NCBI GenBank assembly: GCA_905479265.1 | Contig: CAJQLX010000058.1 | Span: 1-49,734 of the forward strand | From: an uncultured Alphaproteobacteria bacterium | GTDB lineage: Bacteria > Pseudomonadota > Alphaproteobacteria > UBA7985 | Reading direction: 5' to 3' | Length of the DNA: 49,734 nt | Shown here: in pieces, positions 1-9,904 of the stretch | Layout of the letters: each line of letters opens with the position of its first letter | Position numbering within the stretch: the stretch's first letter is position 1 | Translations under genes and position numbers: made by a program | The notes under the pieces: generated by a model | The model's input: only the letters and a program-made list of their open reading frames with translations | What the model was told of the DNA's origin: nothing | Database searches by the model: none

Positions 1-1
1 T

Positions 2-940
2 GACAGTCGTTTGGGAAAGATGCTGTTTATTGAGAAGCACAGACCGGACTTCATCAGGTTCATAGACACAGACACAATCTCTCTAAACGAAGCATACACA
101 GCAGTTAGAAGAACACGAGAAGACAAGATGCCATCCTTGGCAAAAGGCACTTGGAACAGTCTCAACGAGAACTCTGCTGACTTTGTTTTTCATCATAAGT
201 CATCAAAGAGAATGGATGAGGTTCAGGACGGTTCAGTCAATCTTGTTCTTACCTCCCCACCATACTGGAACAAGAGGATTTACACGTCTGAAGGTTTAGG
301 GAATGAAAAAGATCCTGATGAGTTTGTAGATAATCTCACAGAGCATATGCGGGACATATGGAGGGTGTTGGATGACAAAGGGTCATTCTTCCTCAATCTG
401 GGAGATACATTCTTTGAGAACAAGTTGCAGAACATACCGCATAGGGTGGCACTGGGTTTGGTCTCTCAAGGATGGACTCAGAGAAACACAATCATCTGGC
501 AAAAAACAAATCCAAAGCCCCAAAGTTCAAAGAACAGTCTCTCTCCAACTTACGAGTTCATCTTTCATTTGGTGAAGAATGCGGACTACCACTACCAACA
601 CACTTTGATGGAACAGAAGTCTCCATCTGTCGCCATAGCACCCAGACATAGGGCTACTGGAACTGATGATACTGAAAAAGTAGGTCATCCTTACATTCCA
701 AGAGATGGGAAAAATATGGGTGATTACTGGAGTGAAGATGTTGTCAAAAGTGCTGTGGGTCGTTCACTTGATACCCAGCATCCAGCCCCTTTTGCTGAAG
801 AGATATTGATACTGCCTATCCTTCAAACCACACAGGAAGGGGATACAGTTTTGGACCCGTTTATGGGTGCCGGGACAGTTGGTAGAATATCAAACGCATT
901 AGGCAGGAAGTTCATCGGGTATGATGTTGTGAGATATTGA
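2..940 (+). CDS. DNA methyltransferase (beta-type, probably N4-cytosine), 5'-truncated
   Basis: The frame is open to the left edge, so the true start may lie outside the window; internal candidates are TTG at 11 and ATG at 20. The motif order is that of a beta-class amino-methyltransferase: the catalytic TSPPYW motif lies in the first third and the SAM-binding DPFMGAGT motif near the C-terminus. SPPY catalytic motifs are typical of N4-cytosine enzymes. The first about 40 residues, with the segment SLNEAYTAVRR, resemble the end of a ParB/KorB-like nuclease domain, so the full protein may be a ParB-methylase fusion of the kind found in phages. No restriction endonuclease is visible beside it, so it is probably an orphan modification or anti-restriction enzyme. 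Base composition is AT-rich, unlike the chromosome after 3.2 kb. Family call is firm; specificity is inferred. Confidence 0.85.
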   Translation, partial: DSRLGKMLFIEKHRPDFIRFIDTDTISLNEAYTAVRRTREDKMPSLAKGTWNSLNENSADFVFHHKSSKRMDEVQDGSVNLVLTSPPYWNKRIYTSEGLGNEKDPDEFVDNLTEHMRDIWRVLDDKGSFFLNLGDTFFENKLQNIPHRVALGLVSQGWTQRNTIIWQKTNPKPQSSKNSLSPTYEFIFHLVKNADYHYQHTLMEQKSPSVAIAPRHRATGTDDTEKVGHPYIPRDGKNMGDYWSEDVVKSAVGRSLDTQHPAPFAEEILILPILQTTQEGDTVLDPFMGAGTVGRISNALGRKFIGYDVVRY

Positions 941-1276
941 GAGCTGGACGGTGAAATCTATGTCTTGGTCTGTCTATCGGTATAGAACCTAAGAGTAATA
1001 CCCAAAAAAAATAGTAAAAGTTGCGTGTGGGTATATGAAACAAACATTTACTATTTTTCATCTATGCGCATTAGGAATAAGTATTTTTCATTATTGTAAG
1101 CAATAAAGTGTCTTACAGACTTATAAATACTAATGAAGATACGACCAAAATGTATTCTCATTAGTTTAGTGTAGCACGCATTCTATTATCATACATTATA
1201 TCTTCATTTTTATTCGGTTTAGATTTTGAATAATCCAAACTGAAGTTTTTCTATGCAATAATACTGGATATAATAC
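941..1276. other. AT-rich intergenic region with inverted repeats and a T4-type late-promoter octamer
   Basis: No plausible gene is visible in these 336 bases. The stretch contains a hairpin TGTAAG/CTTACA (1095-1100 and 1112-1117), the octamer TATAAATA (1122-1129), a perfect 10-bp inverted repeat AATGAAGATA/TATCTTCATT (1132-1141 and 1199-1208), and a near-perfect hairpin GTTTAGATT/AATCCAAAC (1217-1225 and 1232-1240) just before the next gene. If that gene encodes a HUH replication protein, as suggested below, these hairpins are candidates for an origin or nick site. Confidence 0.5.
1122..1129 (+). promoter_or_regulatory. T4-like late promoter octamer TATAAATA
   Basis: An exact match to the TATAAATA consensus recognised by the T4 gp55 late sigma factor and its relatives in marine T4-like phages. 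It lies 147 bases upstream of the putative Rep gene in AT-rich DNA. The octamer can arise by chance in AT-rich sequence, so it supports a phage origin only weakly. Confidence 0.35.
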
Positions 1277-1984
1277 ATGAACCTTGATTTAGACATTAAC
1301 CTATCAAAATACCTAAACAACCCAGAGTCATCAAAAGCAGAATGGAATGTTTTGGTAAAAGAGGGATTAGAACGACAACTACATAAAGATATTTGTGAAT
1401 CTATTAATATTTATAAGGCAGAACCTATTTTCTATCATCTAACACTACGGATGAATGAAAAGTGGATGAGGCAGTTTTCAAGGAAGAGCAGCTATAGGAC
1501 TCAGGTAATCTGGGACATTACATCTATGCTTTTAGGCAAGATAAACCTGCGTCTGGTGAAGCACCCTACCCGCACCTGTAGTCAGCCATATAACCTGAGA
1601 TTTTGGACTGCGACTGAGAACAGAACCCAAGAAGGTTCCTACACAGATGACCATTCACACACACTACTGATGGTAAACCCAAAACATATTGAGAAATGGT
1701 CTAACCCCAATCAGTTAGGGTCCATAGTTCAGTCCATTCTTCATAAGAGCAGACCATTCACAGCAAGGGGCATAGAGACCCATCTTGCCCGAGACTGCCA
1801 CTCTGTAGATGTGAGACACATCACCTCCCCAGAGCAGTTCCACAAAACCACAGACTATGGACTGAAGACTGCCGCAGACAGGGACACAGATAATGCCTTT
1901 ACGATAACAAACCAAAATAGTTGGAGAACAATCTATGCCGAACAGAATGATGCAAGACAGAACCCTAACCTTCCGTCTGCCTGA
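1277..1984 (+). CDS. putative HUH-type replication initiator / endonuclease
   Basis: A 235-residue protein with no family I can name outright. Three short segments occur in the order expected of HUH replication initiators: a hydrophobic beta-strand FYHLTLRM (around residue 52) as motif I, HSHTLLMV (around residue 126) with two histidines spaced as in the metal-binding motif II, and DYGLKTA (around residue 193) with tyrosine and lysine spaced YxxK as in motif III. The preceding segment VDVRHI also fits the strand that usually precedes motif III. The gene is followed, with a 50-bp overlap, by a CopG-like repressor, and preceded by hairpins, both common around rolling-circle rep genes. No helicase domain is present. 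The function is inferred from motif spacing only; an unrelated phage protein is the alternative. Confidence 0.45.
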   Translation: MNLDLDINLSKYLNNPESSKAEWNVLVKEGLERQLHKDICESINIYKAEPIFYHLTLRMNEKWMRQFSRKSSYRTQVIWDITSMLLGKINLRLVKHPTRTCSQPYNLRFWTATENRTQEGSYTDDHSHTLLMVNPKHIEKWSNPNQLGSIVQSILHKSRPFTARGIETHLARDCHSVDVRHITSPEQFHKTTDYGLKTAADRDTDNAFTITNQNSWRTIYAEQNDARQNPNLPSA

Positions 1985-2141
1985 CGATATTTACCAAAAG
2001 ATTGATTACCTTGCCGAGCAAAACTGGTGTTCAGTTTCAGCAGTAGTGAGGAATGCCATTCGCAGAGAACTGAATGCGAATGAGGAACTCTTTGAAGAAG
2101 ACTACATCAAGTCCACCAAGCATCATTTGCGGGCATACTAA
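1935..2141 (+). CDS. CopG/Arc-like ribbon-helix-helix DNA-binding protein
   Basis: A 68-residue protein. After a short leader, RTLTFRLPDDIYQKID forms the beta-strand and first helix of a ribbon-helix-helix fold, followed by a turn and the helix VSAVVRNAIRREL; this is the CopG/MetJ/Arc pattern. A GGAG ribosome site (1923-1926) lies 8 bases before the ATG; a second in-frame ATG at 1947 is also possible. The gene overlaps the end of the putative rep gene by 50 bases in another frame, so the two are probably co-translated. Small RHH proteins beside rep genes often act as copy-number or autorepressors; that role is inference here. An antitoxin role is the alternative, but no toxin is adjacent. Confidence 0.75.
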   Translation: MPNRMMQDRTLTFRLPDDIYQKIDYLAEQNWCSVSAVVRNAIRRELNANEELFEEDYIKSTKHHLRAY

Positions 2142-2243
2142 GCACCCGTAAGACGATGTGAAATCCGTGAAAATAGGGGGTGTTTATCACTCTCTCTACA
2201 GAATGTTCCTAAACCAAAAACATACAAAATTGAGGAACAGAGA

Positions 2244-2456
2244 ATGCTTCAACATACGAACTTTGAAGAACTATTCAACGAACTCAAATCCATCCAGCAC
2301 CTCAATCAGCAGGGATACAACTACTCAATTGAAACCTTTGCTCTTCATAACGAAGGCACCCGAGATGACTGGGATGGTAATATAGATGGAGTAGCATCCA
2401 TCCTCAAAAACCACGCATCTTCCAACACGATGAAACTGATTGTGGTGCGAGGATGA
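2244..2456 (+). CDS. small hypothetical protein of the mobile segment
   Basis: A 70-residue protein that I do not recognise. It is acidic and soluble-looking, without signal peptide or membrane segment. A GAGGAA ribosome site lies about 8 bases before the ATG, and its stop overlaps the next start (ATGA, 2453-2456), which supports it over the alternative frame at 2158-2385. Such tight packing of very small genes is usual in phage genomes. Confidence 0.55.
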   Translation: MLQHTNFEELFNELKSIQHLNQQGYNYSIETFALHNEGTRDDWDGNIDGVASILKNHASSNTMKLIVVRG

Positions 2457-2665
2457 AGACCTTCATAGAACTCACAGACCACCTACAGACAGACCCTGTA
2501 TCTGCTGCTGATGATATTACCGAGAGCAAAGGGTTTCTTAGGAAGGGTGCTGCTGCTTTTACCCTGCAGAGTAGAAACCATTCTAAGTCTGCTCAATCCT
2601 CCTTCAAGCAGTCCCTAACAGCACTTACAGGTGCCAAGGGTAAAAATCTACCCCAGAAAAGTTAG
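2453..2665 (+). CDS. small hypothetical protein, N-terminal half of a frame-split gene
   Basis: A 70-residue reading frame starting MKTFIELTDHLQ, an opening style common in small proteins of T4-like marine phages. It starts within the ATGA overlap with the previous gene. The frame ends at TAG (2663-2665), but shortly before, after GGT AAA at a run of five A residues (2642-2646), the -1 frame continues with sensible coding sequence to 2835. Read through a -1 shift (or with a sixth A), it gives a protein of about 127 residues with helical, Leu/Lys-rich content and a basic RRRR tail. The split may be a sequencing or assembly error, a mutation or programmed frameshifting. Confidence 0.5.
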   Translation: MKTFIELTDHLQTDPVSAADDITESKGFLRKGAAAFTLQSRNHSKSAQSSFKQSLTALTGAKGKNLPQKS

Positions 2666-2835
2666 ATGCTCTCTGTGAGGCATTTGAGGGTCTTCTGGCA
2701 GGACTTGATGAGATGACTAAGCAACTAAACCAAACCACAGCAGTTTCAGCATCATCTGCCTTACTCAACGAACGAACAGACAAAGAGATTTTAAATCTTT
2801 TGAAACAGAGCAAGACCAGTAGGAGACGCAGGTAA
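2642..2835 (+). other. -1 frame continuation of the preceding gene
   Basis: In the -1 frame a stretch beginning KSTPEKLDALCEAFEGLL runs without a stop to TAA at 2833-2835, ending in SRRRR. It joins smoothly onto the upstream frame across the A-run at 2642-2646. It has no good start of its own with a ribosome site; the first ATG in this frame is deep within it. Its TAA overlaps the next ATG (TAATG), as expected if this is the true 3' end of the upstream gene. Confidence 0.5.
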
Positions 2836-3008
2836 TGCCTACCAAACAGATATCTAAACTGAACCTACAGAAAATGATTCAGGGTCGTTCATATGCTGAG
2901 AAGTTTGACCTGATAGAGGTAGAGAACGAACAGCAAATCAGGGGTGTATCCACGGCACTAAAGAAGAAACTGAAGGATAACCCAGAGGCACTTATAGTTG
3001 TTTTATGA
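2835..3008 (+). CDS. small hypothetical protein of the mobile segment
   Basis: A 57-residue frame that starts in a TAATG overlap with the preceding -1 frame and ends TGA at 3006-3008. The product begins MPTKQISKLNLQKMIQG and is lysine- and glutamate-rich with probable helices. I recognise no family. The overlap with the preceding stop and the even coding character support translation; size and setting are typical of phage accessory genes. It is the last gene before the composition break. Confidence 0.4.
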   Translation: MPTKQISKLNLQKMIQGRSYAEKFDLIEVENEQQIRGVSTALKKKLKDNPEALIVVL

Positions 3009-3217
3009 GGTTTGTTTCCCTTTACTCTGCGATTAACAAAGTTTGAAAAAACGGTCACAAAATCAGTAAGTTAGGTTTTCAAAACGGGACTTTATCAAGT
3101 CTGTTTTTACAAAGACCTTACAAAGTATATTCGTAGAATGTGCAACCTATTGATTTTTCTGCGTTATTTTATGCACAAATCAAGGTATATTACTGAGTGG
3201 GAATAGGTCCGGCGCGC
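3009..3217. other. AT-rich spacer and abrupt junction to GC-rich chromosome
   Basis: About 195 bases of AT-rich non-coding sequence end at roughly 3200-3210, where the sequence turns GC-rich (GGTCCGGCGCGCC) directly against the dnaB stop codon. No direct repeat, tRNA or integrase gene is visible on this side of the join. The palindrome GGCGCGCC sits at the junction and could be chance. Confidence 0.6.
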
Positions 3218-4756
3218 CTAGTAGCCGGGTGAACCAGCAAAGCGGTCTTCGTCGATGTAGTCGGAGAACCGCGTTGTCGAGCCGTCAAAGAACAGCTTTA
3301 CGTCGCCGGTCGGGCCGTGACGGTTTTTGGAGATGATCACCAGCGCCTGATTGTGAATGTTGGACATGTGATCCTGCCAATCCGACATCCGGGCTTGGAA
3401 TGAACCTTCGTCCTCGTCGCCCCGCTTGATCGGAATTTTGCTCTGCTCGTAATAGGCTTCGCGATAGATGAACATCACCACGTCCGCATCCTGCTCAATC
3501 GAACCGGATTCACGCAAGTCAGCGAGCTGCGGGCGCTTGTCTTCGCGGTTTTCCACCTGACGTGAAAGCTGCGAGAGCGCGATGACAGGCACGTCGAGTT
3601 CCTTGGCGATCCCCTTCAGACCTCGGGTAATCTCCGAGATTTCCTGCACCCGGTTCTCAGACCCGCCAATCTTACCCTGCATCAGCTGCAAGTAGTCCAC
3701 GACAATCAGATCAAGCCCCCCGTACTGCCGCTTCAAGCGACGCGCGCGGGTGCGCAGTGACGACACGGGCAAGGCCGGCGTATCGTCGATGAAGAAATCC
3801 AGCGTTTCCAAGTCACGGGAAATCGTGAAGATGGTGTTGAATTGGTCCGAGTTGATCTCACCCTTACGAATGTTCTCTGAGCTTACGCCCGACTGCTCCG
3901 ACAACATACGCGTGGCGAGCTGCTCGGACGCCATCTCCAGCGAGAAGAACGCGACTTTGCCGTTGGCTTTCTGCGCCGCGTTAAAGGCCATGTTGGTCAC
4001 CAGCGCTGTTTTGCCCATCGCCGGACGCGCCGCGAGGATGATCAGGTCAGAGCGGTTCAAGCCACCGAGTTTTTGATCCAAATCACGAAAACCCGATGGA
4101 ATCCCTGTGTAGTCACCATCGCGCTTGACCGCTGCGTTGATAATATCGAGCGTGGATTTCAGGATCTTATCGAACGAATTCGGACCGTTCTCGATCTCAC
4201 CGCTATCAGCCAAGGAATAGAGCTGCTCCTCGGCTTTTTCGATTTGCAGCATGGGCGGGTTTTCAAGGTTAATCTGGAAAGCATCGTTGACGACGATTTC
4301 ACCCAAATCAATCAGCTGACGGCGCAGATGCATGTCATAAATCGTGCGGGCGTAGTCATTGGCGTTGATGATCGAGACAACGGCAGACTGCAGCACGGCA
4401 AGATAATGACCGCCGCCGATTTCTTCGAGCGCGCCGTCCTGATCAAACATGGTTTTCAGGCGGGCGGCGTCTGCGATTTCACCGTTCTCGATGATCGTCT
4501 TGATCGCCCCATAAATCCGCCCGTGAACCGGCTCGGCAAAGTGCTCGGGCAGCAGGTAATCAGAGACACGCTCGAAAGCGAGGTTGTTGGTCAGCAGCGC
4601 ACCCAGCAACCCTTGCTCCACCTCGATATTCTTGGGCGGAACACGGACACCCAAGCCCGGCTCAACCTCCTCGGTTGCGCGTGGCGCGGGTCCGGCGGGT
4701 CCGTCTTCGGGGGGTGAAAACGGATCGATGGGCGGCATGTCGTCGAAATTATCCAT
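3218..4756 (-). CDS. dnaB: replicative DNA helicase DnaB
   Basis: A 512-residue hexameric replicative helicase that unwinds DNA 5' to 3' at the fork and recruits primase. After an acidic, proline-rich leader (residues 1-35), the DnaB N-terminal helical domain spans roughly residues 36-145, and the RecA-like ATPase domain follows. The Walker A segment ARPAMGKTAL lies near residue 243, Walker B is LDLIVVDYLQLM, and the DnaB motif ESGSIEQDADVVMF follows. The gene is complete, ending GSPGY, and its stop lies within about 15 bases of the composition break. Upstream (4778-4794) is a 17-base box also found before the VWA gene. In many relatives the next gene downstream is alr or radA; here it is foreign DNA. 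Confidence 0.97.
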   Translation of the reverse strand: MDNFDDMPPIDPFSPPEDGPAGPAPRATEEVEPGLGVRVPPKNIEVEQGLLGALLTNNLAFERVSDYLLPEHFAEPVHGRIYGAIKTIIENGEIADAARLKTMFDQDGALEEIGGGHYLAVLQSAVVSIINANDYARTIYDMHLRRQLIDLGEIVVNDAFQINLENPPMLQIEKAEEQLYSLADSGEIENGPNSFDKILKSTLDIINAAVKRDGDYTGIPSGFRDLDQKLGGLNRSDLIILAARPAMGKTALVTNMAFNAAQKANGKVAFFSLEMASEQLATRMLSEQSGVSSENIRKGEINSDQFNTIFTISRDLETLDFFIDDTPALPVSSLRTRARRLKRQYGGLDLIVVDYLQLMQGKIGGSENRVQEISEITRGLKGIAKELDVPVIALSQLSRQVENREDKRPQLADLRESGSIEQDADVVMFIYREAYYEQSKIPIKRGDEDEGSFQARMSDWQDHMSNIHNQALVIISKNRHGPTGDVKLFFDGSTTRFSDYIDEDRFAGSPGY

Positions 4757-4777: not shown

Positions 4778-4794
4778 TACGCATAATCTCTTAC
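4778..4794 (-). promoter_or_regulatory. shared 17-bp promoter box, dnaB copy
   Basis: On the plus strand this reads CTACGCATAATCTCTTA and matches 8121-8137 at 16 of 17 positions. It lies 21 bases before the dnaB start, so it falls in the promoter or leader. It may be a common operator or a shared promoter element; I recognise no known regulator site in it. Confidence 0.45.
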
Positions 4795-4881
4795 GCTATT
4801 TAGGTGAAGATTCTGTTTTTCAGCCCTGCAGCAGGCGCCCGGCCCTTGTGAATAATCGGGATAAGGGGGATGGATCCACCC

Positions 4882-7800
4882 TTAGGGCTTCGTCACCAGC
4901 TGCGCCAAGCTATCGGCTTGCACGACCGCCTTCAGCATCAGCCCAAAGGATGACTTATCGCCGGATTTGACCGAAATCAGCCGGTTTACCACCTGCGATC
5001 CGGCTTGGGCTGTCACGCGATAGCGACCTTCTGGCAGCAACAACGTCTGGACGGCAGCCCCTGTTTTAACGGCACCGCCAAACCCGTTCGCATCGGTCGA
5101 GACCTGTTGGGGTACGATTGACCACTCGATGCTGTCATTGTCCAACGACCGCCCCGAGTCATCCAACAAGCTCAGCGTCACTTGGCCCAGGGAAAAATCA
5201 GGTTCCAGCGCTGTGACCTGCCCCGCCAAAACATAGAATTCCTGCTCCAGCTCAACGTCATTCACCCGCGACCGGAGCTGGTAGCCCCCGGCGGGTAACT
5301 GCACCATGTCGCCGTCCAAAGTCTGCGAGGTCACAATCGCGGCGCCTTGCATCTCAATGCGCCATTGCACGTCTATGCCCGCCGGGACCGCTTCGCCATT
5401 GTTGGCGAAACTCAAGCGAACCGCACCGTCGTTGAAGCGAACGCGCTCAAAAATGGGTTCACTCACCGGCTCTGAGGCATCGACAAAAACGGTCTGTGAA
5501 GCAACGAAGCCTTCAAATGCGACTTCGACATCATAAATGCCGGGTTTGAGGTCGATGGTGGCTTGCGGACCTTGGAAAGCGACCTGCTTTGCCGGATTGC
5601 GCGCATCGCGAAGCACCCACTGCAGATCTTCATCAATCGGCGCGCCGCTTTCCCCCGCAATCAGATCAAGGGAAACAGGCAGCGTTTCAACGGTAATGGC
5701 GTGAGCCGTCGTTTCACCCGCTGTCACGGTCAACGGATGACTCCAACGGTCCAGACCGATTTCAGCTTCCAGCGTATAAGCCGCTTCGGGCACATACAAG
5801 CGTCGCACTTCACCCGCCGCGACCGGTGTCTCTAGCGCGTAAAACGGGCTCGACACGCGCACCATCAGCGGCTGTATGGCGGCATCTGTCGCTTTGGTCG
5901 GATCAAGGCGCAACTCCAGCCGCGCCAAATCGAGCGAAAATTCGTGATCCGTGCGCTCAAAGGCCTCAACCGAAAACGCCTGCTCGACCAACTGACCATC
6001 CAATTCCGCGATAACCCGGTATTCGCCCGCCGTCTTTGGCAGCGACAAGGAGGCTCCCTGACCAGCATCCAGCGATGCGTTCGTGACGGCATCCTCAACG
6101 GTCCAGCTCAGCGCCACGTCTGCATCAAGCGGTACGTCCGGTGACAGCATGAAGCGAACGGTGTCTGGCTTTCGTGCAGCGACGATGGTCTGCGCCTCTT
6201 CCATCGCTGCTTCCAACATTGCGATGCGTTGGCTCAGATCCTCTTGCCCCAAGCGACACTGCGCGAGGCCATCGGTCAGGGTCTGATTCTGTGTTTCCAA
6301 CCGGGTGGCTGTGAGTTTGCTCTCCGCGGCCTGTGTCAGCGCATCATTGCGCGCGGTCACCAAACGCAGGTTTTCCGCTTTGGTCGCTTCGAGCGCTTCC
6401 AAGGCCGCGTTCAGGTCCGTGCGCATGGTCTCGCTGGCGGCCAAAACACCTGCCATTTCCAACTCAAGCGCTTGCCGCGCCTTCATATGGTCAAAGGCAG
6501 CCTCATTCACTTCCGCTTCCCAATTGGCTTTCATCGCCAATTGATTGGCTTGCAAGCCAGCGAGCAGATCGCGCGCGTCATTGACCCGCCGTTCCGCATC
6601 GGCCCGCTGTCGCTGCACCACCAAAACGTCCTGTTGCGCGTCCATCAATTCGGCTCGCACGGATTTGAGTTGCTCCAACAGCGCCGAACGCTCGCTTTCC
6701 AGTTCAGAAATCTGTACGTCCCGCCGGGCAATCACCTCCAACACTGGCAAATCATTGCCCTCAAGGGTTGGCTGTTCCTGATCCGCAAGGGGGCGCCCGG
6801 ATTCGAGGCTTTGGGCCAATTGCTGCGCCGACGAAGCCCGCAGAACGTTCTGGTCCAGCGCTTCTTCGATGTCATTGATCCGGCCATGCAGCTCCGCCGA
6901 TTGCGCGGCTGTTGCGGCCATCTCCGTTTCCAGCTTAGCCCGCCGCTGGACGAGTCGCTCGTACCCTTGGCGCAGCTTGTCCGCCGGTTCCGTCACCACC
7001 GCCGACACCTTGGCCATATCAGCCGCCAGATCCGCCCGACGGCTGAGACCCAACGTTCCAGAATTCCAAGCGTCCGTTTGATCCTGCATGCGGATCAGCA
7101 TGAGGTCGCGAGAGCCGAGTTGGTCGCGCAAGCGCTCTGCCGCCCCTCGGATCATCGCGATCTCGTCCTCCGCGCTCAATCCATCGGCAATCTGGAGTTC
7201 TTCGGTCAATAAATCACGCTCGGAAAAGGCATTCACACGGCCCGCGAGCGCGGAAACAGCATCGTCCAGCCGGGTCAGGTCACCCCGAATCCGGGTCAGG
7301 TCGCGCACCGACATATCCTGTTCCTGCAACAGCAGCCGCGCGATGCTGGCGGCTGAACGCTGTGCGTTGGATGTATGGGACAGCGACAGCGCCTTCGCAA
7401 TCAGCGGCGTCAAATCTTCGCCCGGTTCAGCAACAACAAAGGAGCCCCCGGCGCTGGACGGCAAGCACCGCAGCAAAGCCGCATCCGAGGCATCCATGCC
7501 CATTCCAATCAGATGAACGGGGATTTGCATCTGGGCCAAGGGCGCCGAAAGCGCGCAAGCGTTGCCGCCGCACTCTTCCGCCCCATCGGTCAGCACAACA
7601 ATCGCGCCCGGTCCGGCTTGCTGTGACAGGCGCGCAGCGGCGGTTTCGATCGCATCGGCCAAGGGTCGCATCCCGCGCTCTTGGGGGGCTTCCGCGCGCA
7701 GCGCTCGCGCCAACGCGGCGGGGGTGGCTGTGGGATTGGTCAAAACTTCAATGTCTGAGCAGTCAAAGTTTCGACGATGGCCAAAGGTAATCGCCCCAGA

Positions 7801-8073
7801 GCGGGTCGCGCTTGGCATGTTGGCGGTCGTTGCCGTAACGGCATCGCGAGCGGCTTCGAACTTGCTTGCGCCCCCGCCCCAGCCCTGATTCATCGAGCCA
7901 GATCCGTCCAACACAATCATGACATTCGACGTGTCTTTGAGCAGGGTTTCAAGGAAGTCGGATTCCTGCGCCAACGCTGCGCTGCTGCACAGCGCTCCAA
8001 CCGCAAGGGCGGCCCAACGGATGATTCTTGCACCCCACGGAAGGGAGCGGTACTGGTCCTGACCAAATGGCAC
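4882..8073 (-). CDS. secreted VWA-domain protein with coiled coil and five tandem beta-sandwich repeats
   Basis: A protein of about 1,063 residues from the GTG at 8073; a GTG at 8094 is an alternative. The open frame extends to 8442, but that would run into the ETF-QO gene and add sequence with no signal-peptide character. A signal peptide ends near SAALA-Q (residue 35). A von Willebrand A domain follows (about 50-230) with MIDAS motif DGSGS (56-60) and a later TDGAE. Residues about 240-630 are Glu/Ala/Gln/Leu-rich coiled coil. Five repeats of 80-87 residues (about 636-1047) follow, each with a W or hydrophobic strand, then L-P-x-G-x-Y and a closing V-x-A-G segment. This suggests a periplasmic or surface adhesion or scaffold protein; the function is unknown. 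It stands alone between dnaB and ETF-QO. Confidence 0.8.
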   Translation of the reverse strand: MPFGQDQYRSLPWGARIIRWAALAVGALCSSAALAQESDFLETLLKDTSNVMIVLDGSGSMNQGWGGGASKFEAARDAVTATTANMPSATRSGAITFGHRRNFDCSDIEVLTNPTATPAALARALRAEAPQERGMRPLADAIETAAARLSQQAGPGAIVVLTDGAEECGGNACALSAPLAQMQIPVHLIGMGMDASDAALLRCLPSSAGGSFVVAEPGEDLTPLIAKALSLSHTSNAQRSAASIARLLLQEQDMSVRDLTRIRGDLTRLDDAVSALAGRVNAFSERDLLTEELQIADGLSAEDEIAMIRGAAERLRDQLGSRDLMLIRMQDQTDAWNSGTLGLSRRADLAADMAKVSAVVTEPADKLRQGYERLVQRRAKLETEMAATAAQSAELHGRINDIEEALDQNVLRASSAQQLAQSLESGRPLADQEQPTLEGNDLPVLEVIARRDVQISELESERSALLEQLKSVRAELMDAQQDVLVVQRQRADAERRVNDARDLLAGLQANQLAMKANWEAEVNEAAFDHMKARQALELEMAGVLAASETMRTDLNAALEALEATKAENLRLVTARNDALTQAAESKLTATRLETQNQTLTDGLAQCRLGQEDLSQRIAMLEAAMEEAQTIVAARKPDTVRFMLSPDVPLDADVALSWTVEDAVTNASLDAGQGASLSLPKTAGEYRVIAELDGQLVEQAFSVEAFERTDHEFSLDLARLELRLDPTKATDAAIQPLMVRVSSPFYALETPVAAGEVRRLYVPEAAYTLEAEIGLDRWSHPLTVTAGETTAHAITVETLPVSLDLIAGESGAPIDEDLQWVLRDARNPAKQVAFQGPQATIDLKPGIYDVEVAFEGFVASQTVFVDASEPVSEPIFERVRFNDGAVRLSFANNGEAVPAGIDVQWRIEMQGAAIVTSQTLDGDMVQLPAGGYQLRSRVNDVELEQEFYVLAGQVTALEPDFSLGQVTLSLLDDSGRSLDNDSIEWSIVPQQVSTDANGFGGAVKTGAAVQTLLLPEGRYRVTAQAGSQVVNRLISVKSGDKSSFGLMLKAVVQADSLAQLVTKP
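4933..6168 (-). repeat. five tandem protein repeats (80-87 residues each) within the VWA protein
   Basis: Reading from the N-terminal side, repeats cover approximately residues 636-714, 715-795, 796-877, 878-960 and 961-1047. The shared pattern is a strand of the type VxLSL, a W-centred strand in most units, a stretch ending LPxGxYxV or similar, and a closing strand with AG. Identity between units is low, so they are old duplications of an Ig-like or carboxypeptidase-regulatory-like beta-sandwich rather than recent DNA repeats. Confidence 0.55.
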
Positions 8074-8120
8074 GGTCTGACTCCAAAACTGCACGTCTGA
8101 AACGGCTAAATTGCAAATTG

Positions 8121-8155
8121 CTACGCATAATCCCTTAAAACGACGGGTTATGCGT
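8121..8155. promoter_or_regulatory. palindromic operator-like element upstream of the VWA gene
   Basis: Perfect 8-bp inverted arms ACGCATAA (8123-8130) and TTATGCGT (8148-8155) are separated by 17 bases; adjacent CCC and GGG extend the symmetry with one bulge. The left half, 8121-8137, is the second copy of the box found before dnaB. The element lies 27 bases before the GTG at 8094 and 48 before that at 8073, so a repressor or activator site for the VWA gene is plausible. Confidence 0.45.
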
Positions 8156-8202
8156 CTTCTTAGCCAAGAGTGCTGCAAGCCGCGAGCCACGAATAAGGCC
8201 AC

Positions 8203-8232
8203 AAAAAAAGGCCTCCTGCAGGAGACCTTTTT
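8203..8232 (-). terminator. intrinsic terminator after the ETF-QO gene
   Basis: On the minus strand AAAGGTCTCC-TGCA-GGAGGCCTTT forms a 10-bp stem (one G-U pair) with a four-base loop, followed by a run of T residues. It begins 17 bases past the ETF-QO stop codon and isolates that gene from the VWA gene. The flanking A and T runs could also make it work in the other direction. Confidence 0.85.
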
Positions 8233-8248
8233 GATGCCGAGCAGAGGC

Positions 8249-9904
8249 TTACATGTTGCCGTAGTTCGGCCCACCGCCGCCTTCTGGCGTGACCCAATTG
8301 ATGTTCTGGGTCGGATCTTTGATGTCACAGGTTTTACAGTGCACGCAATTTTGCGCGTTGATCTGTAACTGCGGATTGGTGCCGTCGTCATCCCGCACAA
8401 TCTCATAAACCCCAGCCGGACAGTAGCGCTGCTCAGGTGCATCGTACTGCGCGAGGTTGATGGTGATCGGCGTGCTGCTGTCTTTGAGCGTCAGGTGGAT
8501 CGGCTGATCTTCCTCGTGGTTCACGTTTGCGACGTAGACCGAAGAGGTCTTGTCAAAGCTGATAACGCCATCGGGCTTTGGGTAGTCGATCCTTTTACAC
8601 TGATCCGCTGGTTTGAGCGTTTCGTGGTCTTTGTGCTTGTGCTTGAAGGTCCACGGCATCGGAATGCCCAAATTGGACAGATGCAGTTCCAGTGCACCAA
8701 CGCCGAAACCAGCCAGTCCGAGCTTGTGGAACCAAGGGCCAAAGTTCCGCGCCTTGAACAGCTCTTTGAACACCCAGCTCCGTTCCATGTTGGACTGGTA
8801 GTCTGTGACCTCAGCCGGGGCAGCTTCACCCTGCTGCAGCGCTTCGAACACCGCTTCAGCCGCAACCATGCCGGACTTCATCGCCGTATGAGAGCCTTTG
8901 ATCTTTGGAACGTTCAGGAAGCCAGCAGAGCAACCCAGCAGCATACCGCCGGGGAACGTCAACTTGGGAATAGACTGGAAACCGCCCTCGTTGATCGCAC
9001 GCGCCCCGTAGGACAACCGCTTGCCGCCTTCGAGCATCGGTCTGATCTTTGGGTGCTGCTTGAAGCGCTGGAATTCATCGAACGGGCTCAGGTGTGGGTT
9101 TTTGTAATCGAGCGCGACCACGTAACCGACGTAAGCCTGATTGTTGTCGAGGTGATAGATAAACGAACCGCCCCACGTATTCCAATCCATCGGCCAACCC
9201 GCCGAGTGCAGGATCGAACCTTCTTTGTGCTTCTCGGGGTCAAGCTCCCACAGCTCTTTAAAGCCAATGCCGTACTTTTGCGGGCTGGAGTCGTCGGCCA
9301 GACCAAAGCGCTCGATCAACTGCTTAGACAGCGAACCGCGCACGCCTTCGGCGAACATGGTGTACTTGGCGTGCAGCTCCATACCCGGCTCAAAGCCAGA
9401 TTTTTGCTCACCATCACGACCAATGCCCATGACACCGGTTGCAACGCCCTTGACCGAGCCATCGTCGTTATACAGCACTTCAGATGCCGGGAAGCCGGGG
9501 AAGATTTCGATGCCCATGCCTTCGGCCTGCTCCGCCAACCAGCGGCAAACGTTGCCCAGCGAGACGATGTAGTTGCCATCGTTATGCACTTGCTCAGGCA
9601 TGGCCCAGATCGGCATGGAAATTCCATTAGCCTCGGTCAGGACCATGAATTTTTCATCCGTGACGGGAACGTTCAGCGGCGCGCCGCGTTCTTTCCAGTC
9701 TGGGAACAACTCGTCCATTGCGCGCGGTTCCATCACCGCACCTGACAGGATATGAGCGCCGACCTCCGAGCCCTTTTCGAGCACAACAATCGCCAGCTCT
9801 TCACCCTTTTCCTGCGCCAGCTGCTGCAATCGGATTGCCGCAGAAAGTCCAGAGGGGCCGCCGCCGACAATGACGACGTCTACTTCCATCGCTTCGCGTT
9901 CCAT
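8249..9904 (-). CDS. electron transfer flavoprotein-ubiquinone oxidoreductase
   Basis: A 551-residue membrane-associated enzyme that passes electrons from ETF, reduced by acyl-CoA and other dehydrogenases, to ubiquinone. The FAD-binding dinucleotide motif GGGPSG is at residues 14-19. The C-terminal ferredoxin-like domain supplies the 4Fe-4S ligands as C495, C520, C523 and C526 (CPAG and NCVHCKTCD). I chose the ATG at 9904 because MEREAMEVDVVIVGGG matches the usual family start and GGGAG lies 9 bases upstream; the frame extends to 10066 without family-like sequence. It is a single gene with its own terminator, transcribed divergently from the UDG gene; the ETF subunit genes are not in the window. 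Confidence 0.96.
   Translation of the reverse strand: MEREAMEVDVVIVGGGPSGLSAAIRLQQLAQEKGEELAIVVLEKGSEVGAHILSGAVMEPRAMDELFPDWKERGAPLNVPVTDEKFMVLTEANGISMPIWAMPEQVHNDGNYIVSLGNVCRWLAEQAEGMGIEIFPGFPASEVLYNDDGSVKGVATGVMGIGRDGEQKSGFEPGMELHAKYTMFAEGVRGSLSKQLIERFGLADDSSPQKYGIGFKELWELDPEKHKEGSILHSAGWPMDWNTWGGSFIYHLDNNQAYVGYVVALDYKNPHLSPFDEFQRFKQHPKIRPMLEGGKRLSYGARAINEGGFQSIPKLTFPGGMLLGCSAGFLNVPKIKGSHTAMKSGMVAAEAVFEALQQGEAAPAEVTDYQSNMERSWVFKELFKARNFGPWFHKLGLAGFGVGALELHLSNLGIPMPWTFKHKHKDHETLKPADQCKRIDYPKPDGVISFDKTSSVYVANVNHEEDQPIHLTLKDSSTPITINLAQYDAPEQRYCPAGVYEIVRDDDGTNPQLQINAQNCVHCKTCDIKDPTQNINWVTPEGGGGPNYGNM

Follow-up and report, generated by a model that had tools for sequence, protein, structure and literature searches.

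Ribbon-helix-helix (RHH) proteins that control copy number repress their own unit, and a two-gene arrangement of Rep and RHH is ordinary for small replicons. In copy control of the pMV158 type (CopG-RepB), the RHH protein is paired with a nicking Rep. The HUH motif is defined with a hydrophobic residue at position U, and Y1 classes carry the signatures Y...Q or Y...NP (PMC6006769). In plasmid Reps the motifs are described in the order I-II-III (PMC5714925).

We analysed a window of 49,734 nt from an uncultured marine alphaproteobacterium, which is a whole contig (C58 of 61). A first-pass annotation had read two overlapping genes near its start as a possible HUH Rep plus CopG-type repressor cassette. 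The motif order, the RHH partner and the gene order sustain this proposal, but no family or fold match and no usable structural model were obtained, and the residue at U is Ser. An HUH-type Rep with an RHH regulator is our best reading, and the predicted strand/helix order also fits it. Judged from its sequence, the 235-residue protein is rather probably a very divergent single-tyrosine HUH endonuclease of the Rep type. In its anatomy the gene pair behaves as a Rep-RHH unit, but nothing establishes that the protein belongs to a named HUH family.

The AT-rich island at the contig start

The island begins at the first base of the contig and contains or adjoins the following features:

1-3205, no strand assigned: AT-rich island with all recognised genes on the plus strand; GC about 0.41, right edge near 3205 beside the dnaB stop
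2-940, plus strand: solitary N6/N4 DNA methyltransferase with its 5' end lost at the contig start (PF01555, E 3e-42; phrog_67, E 1e-43; frame open to the edge)
941-1276, no strand assigned: AT-rich intergenic region of 336 nt with hairpins, candidate origin or operator, from inverted repeats and folding
1012-1059, no strand assigned: element of 48 bp with an inverted repeat; its one counterpart in a same-genus genome is 83% identical (G005:C15:13537-13584; L114/L134)
1122-1134, plus strand: T4-late-promoter-like site TATAAATACTAAT, one mismatch from TATAAATACTATT, overlapping a hairpin arm
3218-4756, minus strand: intact host dnaB, homologous to the sister genome as far as its stop codon and no further

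The composition breaks sharply at the right edge, with a GC of 0.41 in the island against 0.565 in dnaB and a third-position GC of about 0.45 against 0.71. The palindrome GGCGCGCC lies at this break, directly after the dnaB stop (3210-3217). The methyltransferase is at most 39% identical to its best matches in phage and IMG/VR records, and only two other genomes of the class reach E 1e-20. The solitary methyltransferase, the small genes and the T4-late-promoter-like site point weakly to the phage-like segment that the first-pass annotation had described, but no phage relative was found, and Pfam and PHROGs found neither phage structural genes nor T4 core genes among the genes of the 3.2-kb segment. 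A search for gp23 gave no match in the genome itself and none in the control genomes either.

The hairpins noted before the Rep-like gene are borne out by the inverted repeats and the folding of 941-1276. One inverted repeat has 16-nt arms (1007-1022/1043-1058) that are 94% complementary, and the region folds better than 98 of 100 shuffles (z -2.3). Rfam gave nothing above threshold. Neither iterons nor a nick site were identified, which we count against the HUH Rep reading. The late promoter of T4 and KVP40 is TATAAATA and that of cyanophage S-PM2 is NATAAATA (PMC2984593). The proposed T4-type late promoter is a good sequence match and is rare by chance, appearing in 0 of 100 dinucleotide shuffles of bases 1-3205 and in 5 of 1000 shuffles of the intergenic stretch alone; however, it overlaps a hairpin arm, ends 143 nt before the Rep-like gene, and no T4-type gene was recognised on its segment. 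It is not enough for calling the segment T4-like.

We read the segment as a fragment of a mobile element (phage, satellite or plasmid) that either integrated past dnaB or was placed beside it by the assembly. It occupies the contig's first 3.2 kb and breaks off where it meets the stop codon of dnaB on a GC-richer chromosome, so the assembly may have created its link to the remainder of the window. Bases 1-3205 would then be foreign DNA lying outside this chromosome, a possibility that is independent of what the protein is and that we rate as evenly balanced. The position at the contig start and the abrupt change in GC argue for a join, as do the unrelated genes that the sister genome carries downstream of dnaB and the absence of the coding part from five same-genus genomes. 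Against it, a mobile element inserted past a housekeeping gene would give the same picture, and an AT-rich Rep-RHH unit elsewhere in the class (L138), which resembles the window segment beside dnaB, adjoins glmS, likewise at a contig start. The 48-bp element also speaks against a join, since it is common only to a same-genus genome and a pattern search did not find it in IMG/VR viral contigs or other species genomes; it is mild evidence that the segment is part of the genus's mobile gene pool. Aside from this element, the observations agree as well with integration downstream of dnaB as with an assembly join. No near DNA relative of the segment was found.

The same-genus copy of the 48-bp element adjoins an apparently truncated glycoside-hydrolase-like ORF. 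On the other side of dnaB, about 3.4 kb with a vWA-domain-like ORF (4787-8250) separate it from the next conserved gene, where the sister genome has about 200 bp. The sister genome also holds a second, partial dnaB (G005:C33:53430-54290), 80% identical over residues 225-512 and with one internal stop, about 19 kb from its intact dnaB. A 3.2-kb circle was considered and rejected: its two ends share no k-mer of at least 10, and no unbroken frame that has a clear start runs across the join.

An HUH-like motif triad in the 235-residue protein

1277-1984, plus strand: orphan 235-aa protein with HUH-Rep-like motifs (H126, H128, Y194, K197), from an ORF with an ATG start and motif reading

The three HUH-like segments reported for this product were confirmed together with the ORF. 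FYHLTLRM lies at residue 52, HSHTLLMV at 126 and DYGLKTA at 193, in the Rep-type order I-II-III, with 74 residues from motif I to HxH and 68 from HxH to Y194. Read from the sequence, the candidate catalytic residues of motif III are Y194 and, at +3, K197. The middle residue of the HxH motif is Ser (HSH) and not a bulky hydrophobic U; HSH also occurs in L105, a PF23343-like protein that scores 26.3 bits against a cut-off of 27.8.

We then compared the triad (motif I, HxH and Y-x-x-K with wide spacings) with shuffled sequences and with control proteins of 180-400 aa from fetched loci. Of 200,000 shuffled versions of the protein, 120 fitted the pattern (0.06%, 6e-4), as did 4 of 485 controls, which places the triad above chance, although the regular expression was written with the 235-residue protein in view, so that these chance rates are somewhat optimistic and the true rate is probably somewhat higher. 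All four matching controls are HUH Rep or Rep-like, namely the pC194 Rep and three proteins fetched via the PF23343 family; none of the 481 unrelated controls matched.

The protein had been described as a Rep without a nameable family, and searches of Pfam, PHROGs, NCBIfam and PDB sequences agreed with this, returning nothing or noise only. PF23343 was not listed up to E 10, and hhalign against PF23343-type profiles scored no better than shuffles. No credible match came from tblastn searches of phage (50,697) and plasmid (72,556) records. Peptide-pattern scans of IMG/VR and the GTDB species genomes, which require identical short peptides, found no Rep relative, and a search with looser matching across 385 class genomes returned the window itself only, with no second Rep copy in its own genome. 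No Rep relatives were found in 50 methyltransferase-bearing viral contigs, and viral scans with the RHH protein and one small protein found no relatives of these. Several weak leads were rejected. The tblastn matches in Klebsiella and Serratia phages (E 0.04-5) are noise, as their frames lie beside or across unrelated genes and cover no HxH; a match in a human-faecal phage scaffold is antisense to sugar-kinase-like and nucleotidyltransferase-like ORFs; and a Taipeivirus lead and a weak Pfam match to FAIM1 were dropped.

The fold check that the first-pass annotation had proposed was run with AlphaFold2 and Foldseek. The single-sequence model is unusable (pLDDT 39; 32 for a truncated run), and Foldseek found no match at E 0.001 or better, but the order of the predicted elements fits. 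At low confidence, AlphaFold2 places a strand at 52-58, a helix at 73-94, a strand at 128-132, a helix at 146-157, a strand at 178-182 and a helix at 185-191, and the truncated run adds a strand at about 105-112. This predicted order is consistent with an HUH domain. In a MAFFT alignment, which is weak, H126, H128 and Y194 fall on the invariant H, H and Y of five PF23343-matching proteins. Because the protein has no relative by sequence or profile, no usable model, a Ser at U and no IS200/RAYT signatures, an HUH fold is no more than inferred for it.

The motifs may instead be coincidental, the protein having another fold and function, for example that of a phage accessory protein. We consider this somewhat unlikely. 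It would explain why no homologue or fold match is detectable and why U is Ser, and the motif definition is post hoc; on the other side stand the low triad rate in shuffles, the absence of false positives among the unrelated controls, the consistent strand/helix order and the RHH neighbour. Placement on the Y1-transposase side of the HUH group (IS200/IS605 or RAYT), as a single-strand transposase acting on the hairpins of its own element, is improbable: the DH-x-H...P context resembles PDHVHLLxxPP and the IS200/IS605 TnpA profile scored best of those tried (reached by 6 of 600 shuffles and 0 of 250 control proteins, a p of about 0.01 that is not significant because several profiles were tried), but the HHalign probability is 2.7%, a deeper profile shrinks the match to 22 columns round HxH, PF01797 is not listed and U is Ser, so that neither profile nor signature places the protein there, Y+4 is Thr against the Q or NP of classes 1 and 2 (PMC6006769), and there is no tnpB on the segment and no second copy in the genome.

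The RHH gene and small ORFs downstream

1935-2141, plus strand: 68-aa ribbon-helix-helix protein of the CopG/Arc type (PF01402 RHH_1 and Arc/CopG PHROGs)
2244-2456, plus strand: small ORF of 70 aa, no match
2453-2835, plus strand: small gene with an apparent -1 frame change near 2644-2662 that divides it into 70 aa and a further 63 codons in a different frame
2835-3008, plus strand: 57-aa ORF, weakly similar to a 64-aa ORF beside the L138 Rep-RHH unit

The overlap with a ribbon-helix-helix gene holds: the Rep-like and RHH ORFs share 50 nt in different frames, and the RHH product belongs to PF01402 RHH_1, just over the cut-off (E 2.5e-4; 21.3 bits against 20.5). Its match to ORF56-type copy control (E 0.009) is below the cut-off. 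In the split gene, frame 2 stops at 2665 and frame 1 is open and protein-like from 2644 to 2835 (STPEKLDALCEAFEGLLAGLDEM...), which may reflect a sequencing indel, decay or frameshifting. The score of the 57-aa ORF against the 64-aa ORF was reached by 6 of 20,000 shuffles, but since about 30 comparisons were made the resemblance is suggestive only.

Rep-RHH units in other alphaproteobacteria

In a PF23343 search of the class, eight genomes gave matches, of which two exceeded the curated cut-off; phrog_10883 matched clearly only once among 385 class genomes. At two of the PF23343 loci, L139 (G088; L106 on G088:C35, over the cut-off) and L138 (G119; L110 on G119:C32, below it), the next gene after the HUH gene, on the same strand, encodes 110 aa with an N terminus that looks RHH-like; this is judged by eye because Pfam gives no confident call. 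One of these two RHH-like neighbours aligned with the window RHH protein above 297 of 300 shuffles. Two recognised HUH genes followed by RHH-like genes support a Rep-RHH unit, but the pairing is not general, as no obvious RHH partner was seen at the other inspected loci (L104, L105, L107-L109 and L111). A serine resolvase (PF00239) lies beside the unit in L139, and a Recombinase-domain-like fragment beside that in L138 (PF07508, E 0.0024, below the cut-off).

Both units (L139:1170-3050 and L138:1003-2820) are small and AT-rich or lower in GC, combining an HUH Rep, an RHH-like gene and a serine recombinase or a weak fragment of one; the adjacent host genes are glmS in L138 and others in L139. 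They are possibly a family of integrative elements.

Proposed mechanism and significance

For an HUH Rep with an RHH regulator, the following course can be proposed. H126 and H128 would bind a divalent metal, and Y194, assisted by K197, would attack a nick site in a hairpin of 941-1276 and become joined to the 5' DNA end. The free 3'-OH would prime rolling-circle replication of the element. The RHH protein, probably translated from the same message as the Rep, would bind 941-1276 and repress the unit.

A bolder proposal, which we hold to be unlikely, is that the protein is the first of an HUH Rep family not yet recognised, in which the HSH centre is non-hydrophobic, and that its Rep-RHH unit serves replication and regulation in a marine phage or a satellite-like element that inserts past housekeeping genes such as dnaB and glmS. 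If the reading as an HUH Rep is confirmed, the protein would be an HUH nickase missed by present family models, and the Rep-RHH pairing in unrelated alphaproteobacterial islands would aid in recognising small marine mobile elements. If not, the locus still illustrates why the biology of islands at contig ends should be discussed only after a join test.

Comparison with known systems

The IS200/IS605 TnpA and RAYT proteins (Y1_Tnp, PF01797) share with the window protein DH-x-H followed by P, a single tyrosine and nearby hairpins, but the window protein is longer, lacks Y...Q or Y...NP and has no significant match to them. The Rep of pC194-type plasmids (Rep_1) has FLTLT, HFHVL and the Y region in the same order, and both proteins fit the triad pattern; unlike it, the window protein has no family match and lacks the cysteine-containing N-terminal part (CKNRFCPVC). 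The REP_ORF2-G2P Reps (PF23343; L106 and L110) resemble it in motif order, HxH, Y-x-x-K, small single-domain size and the same-strand RHH-like gene downstream. The window protein differs from them in its length (235 aa against 160-180), its larger spacings (74 and 68) and the Ser in HSH, and there is no significant sequence or profile similarity between them. In pMV158 the regulator gene precedes Rep, whereas in the window the Rep-like gene comes first and overlaps the RHH gene.
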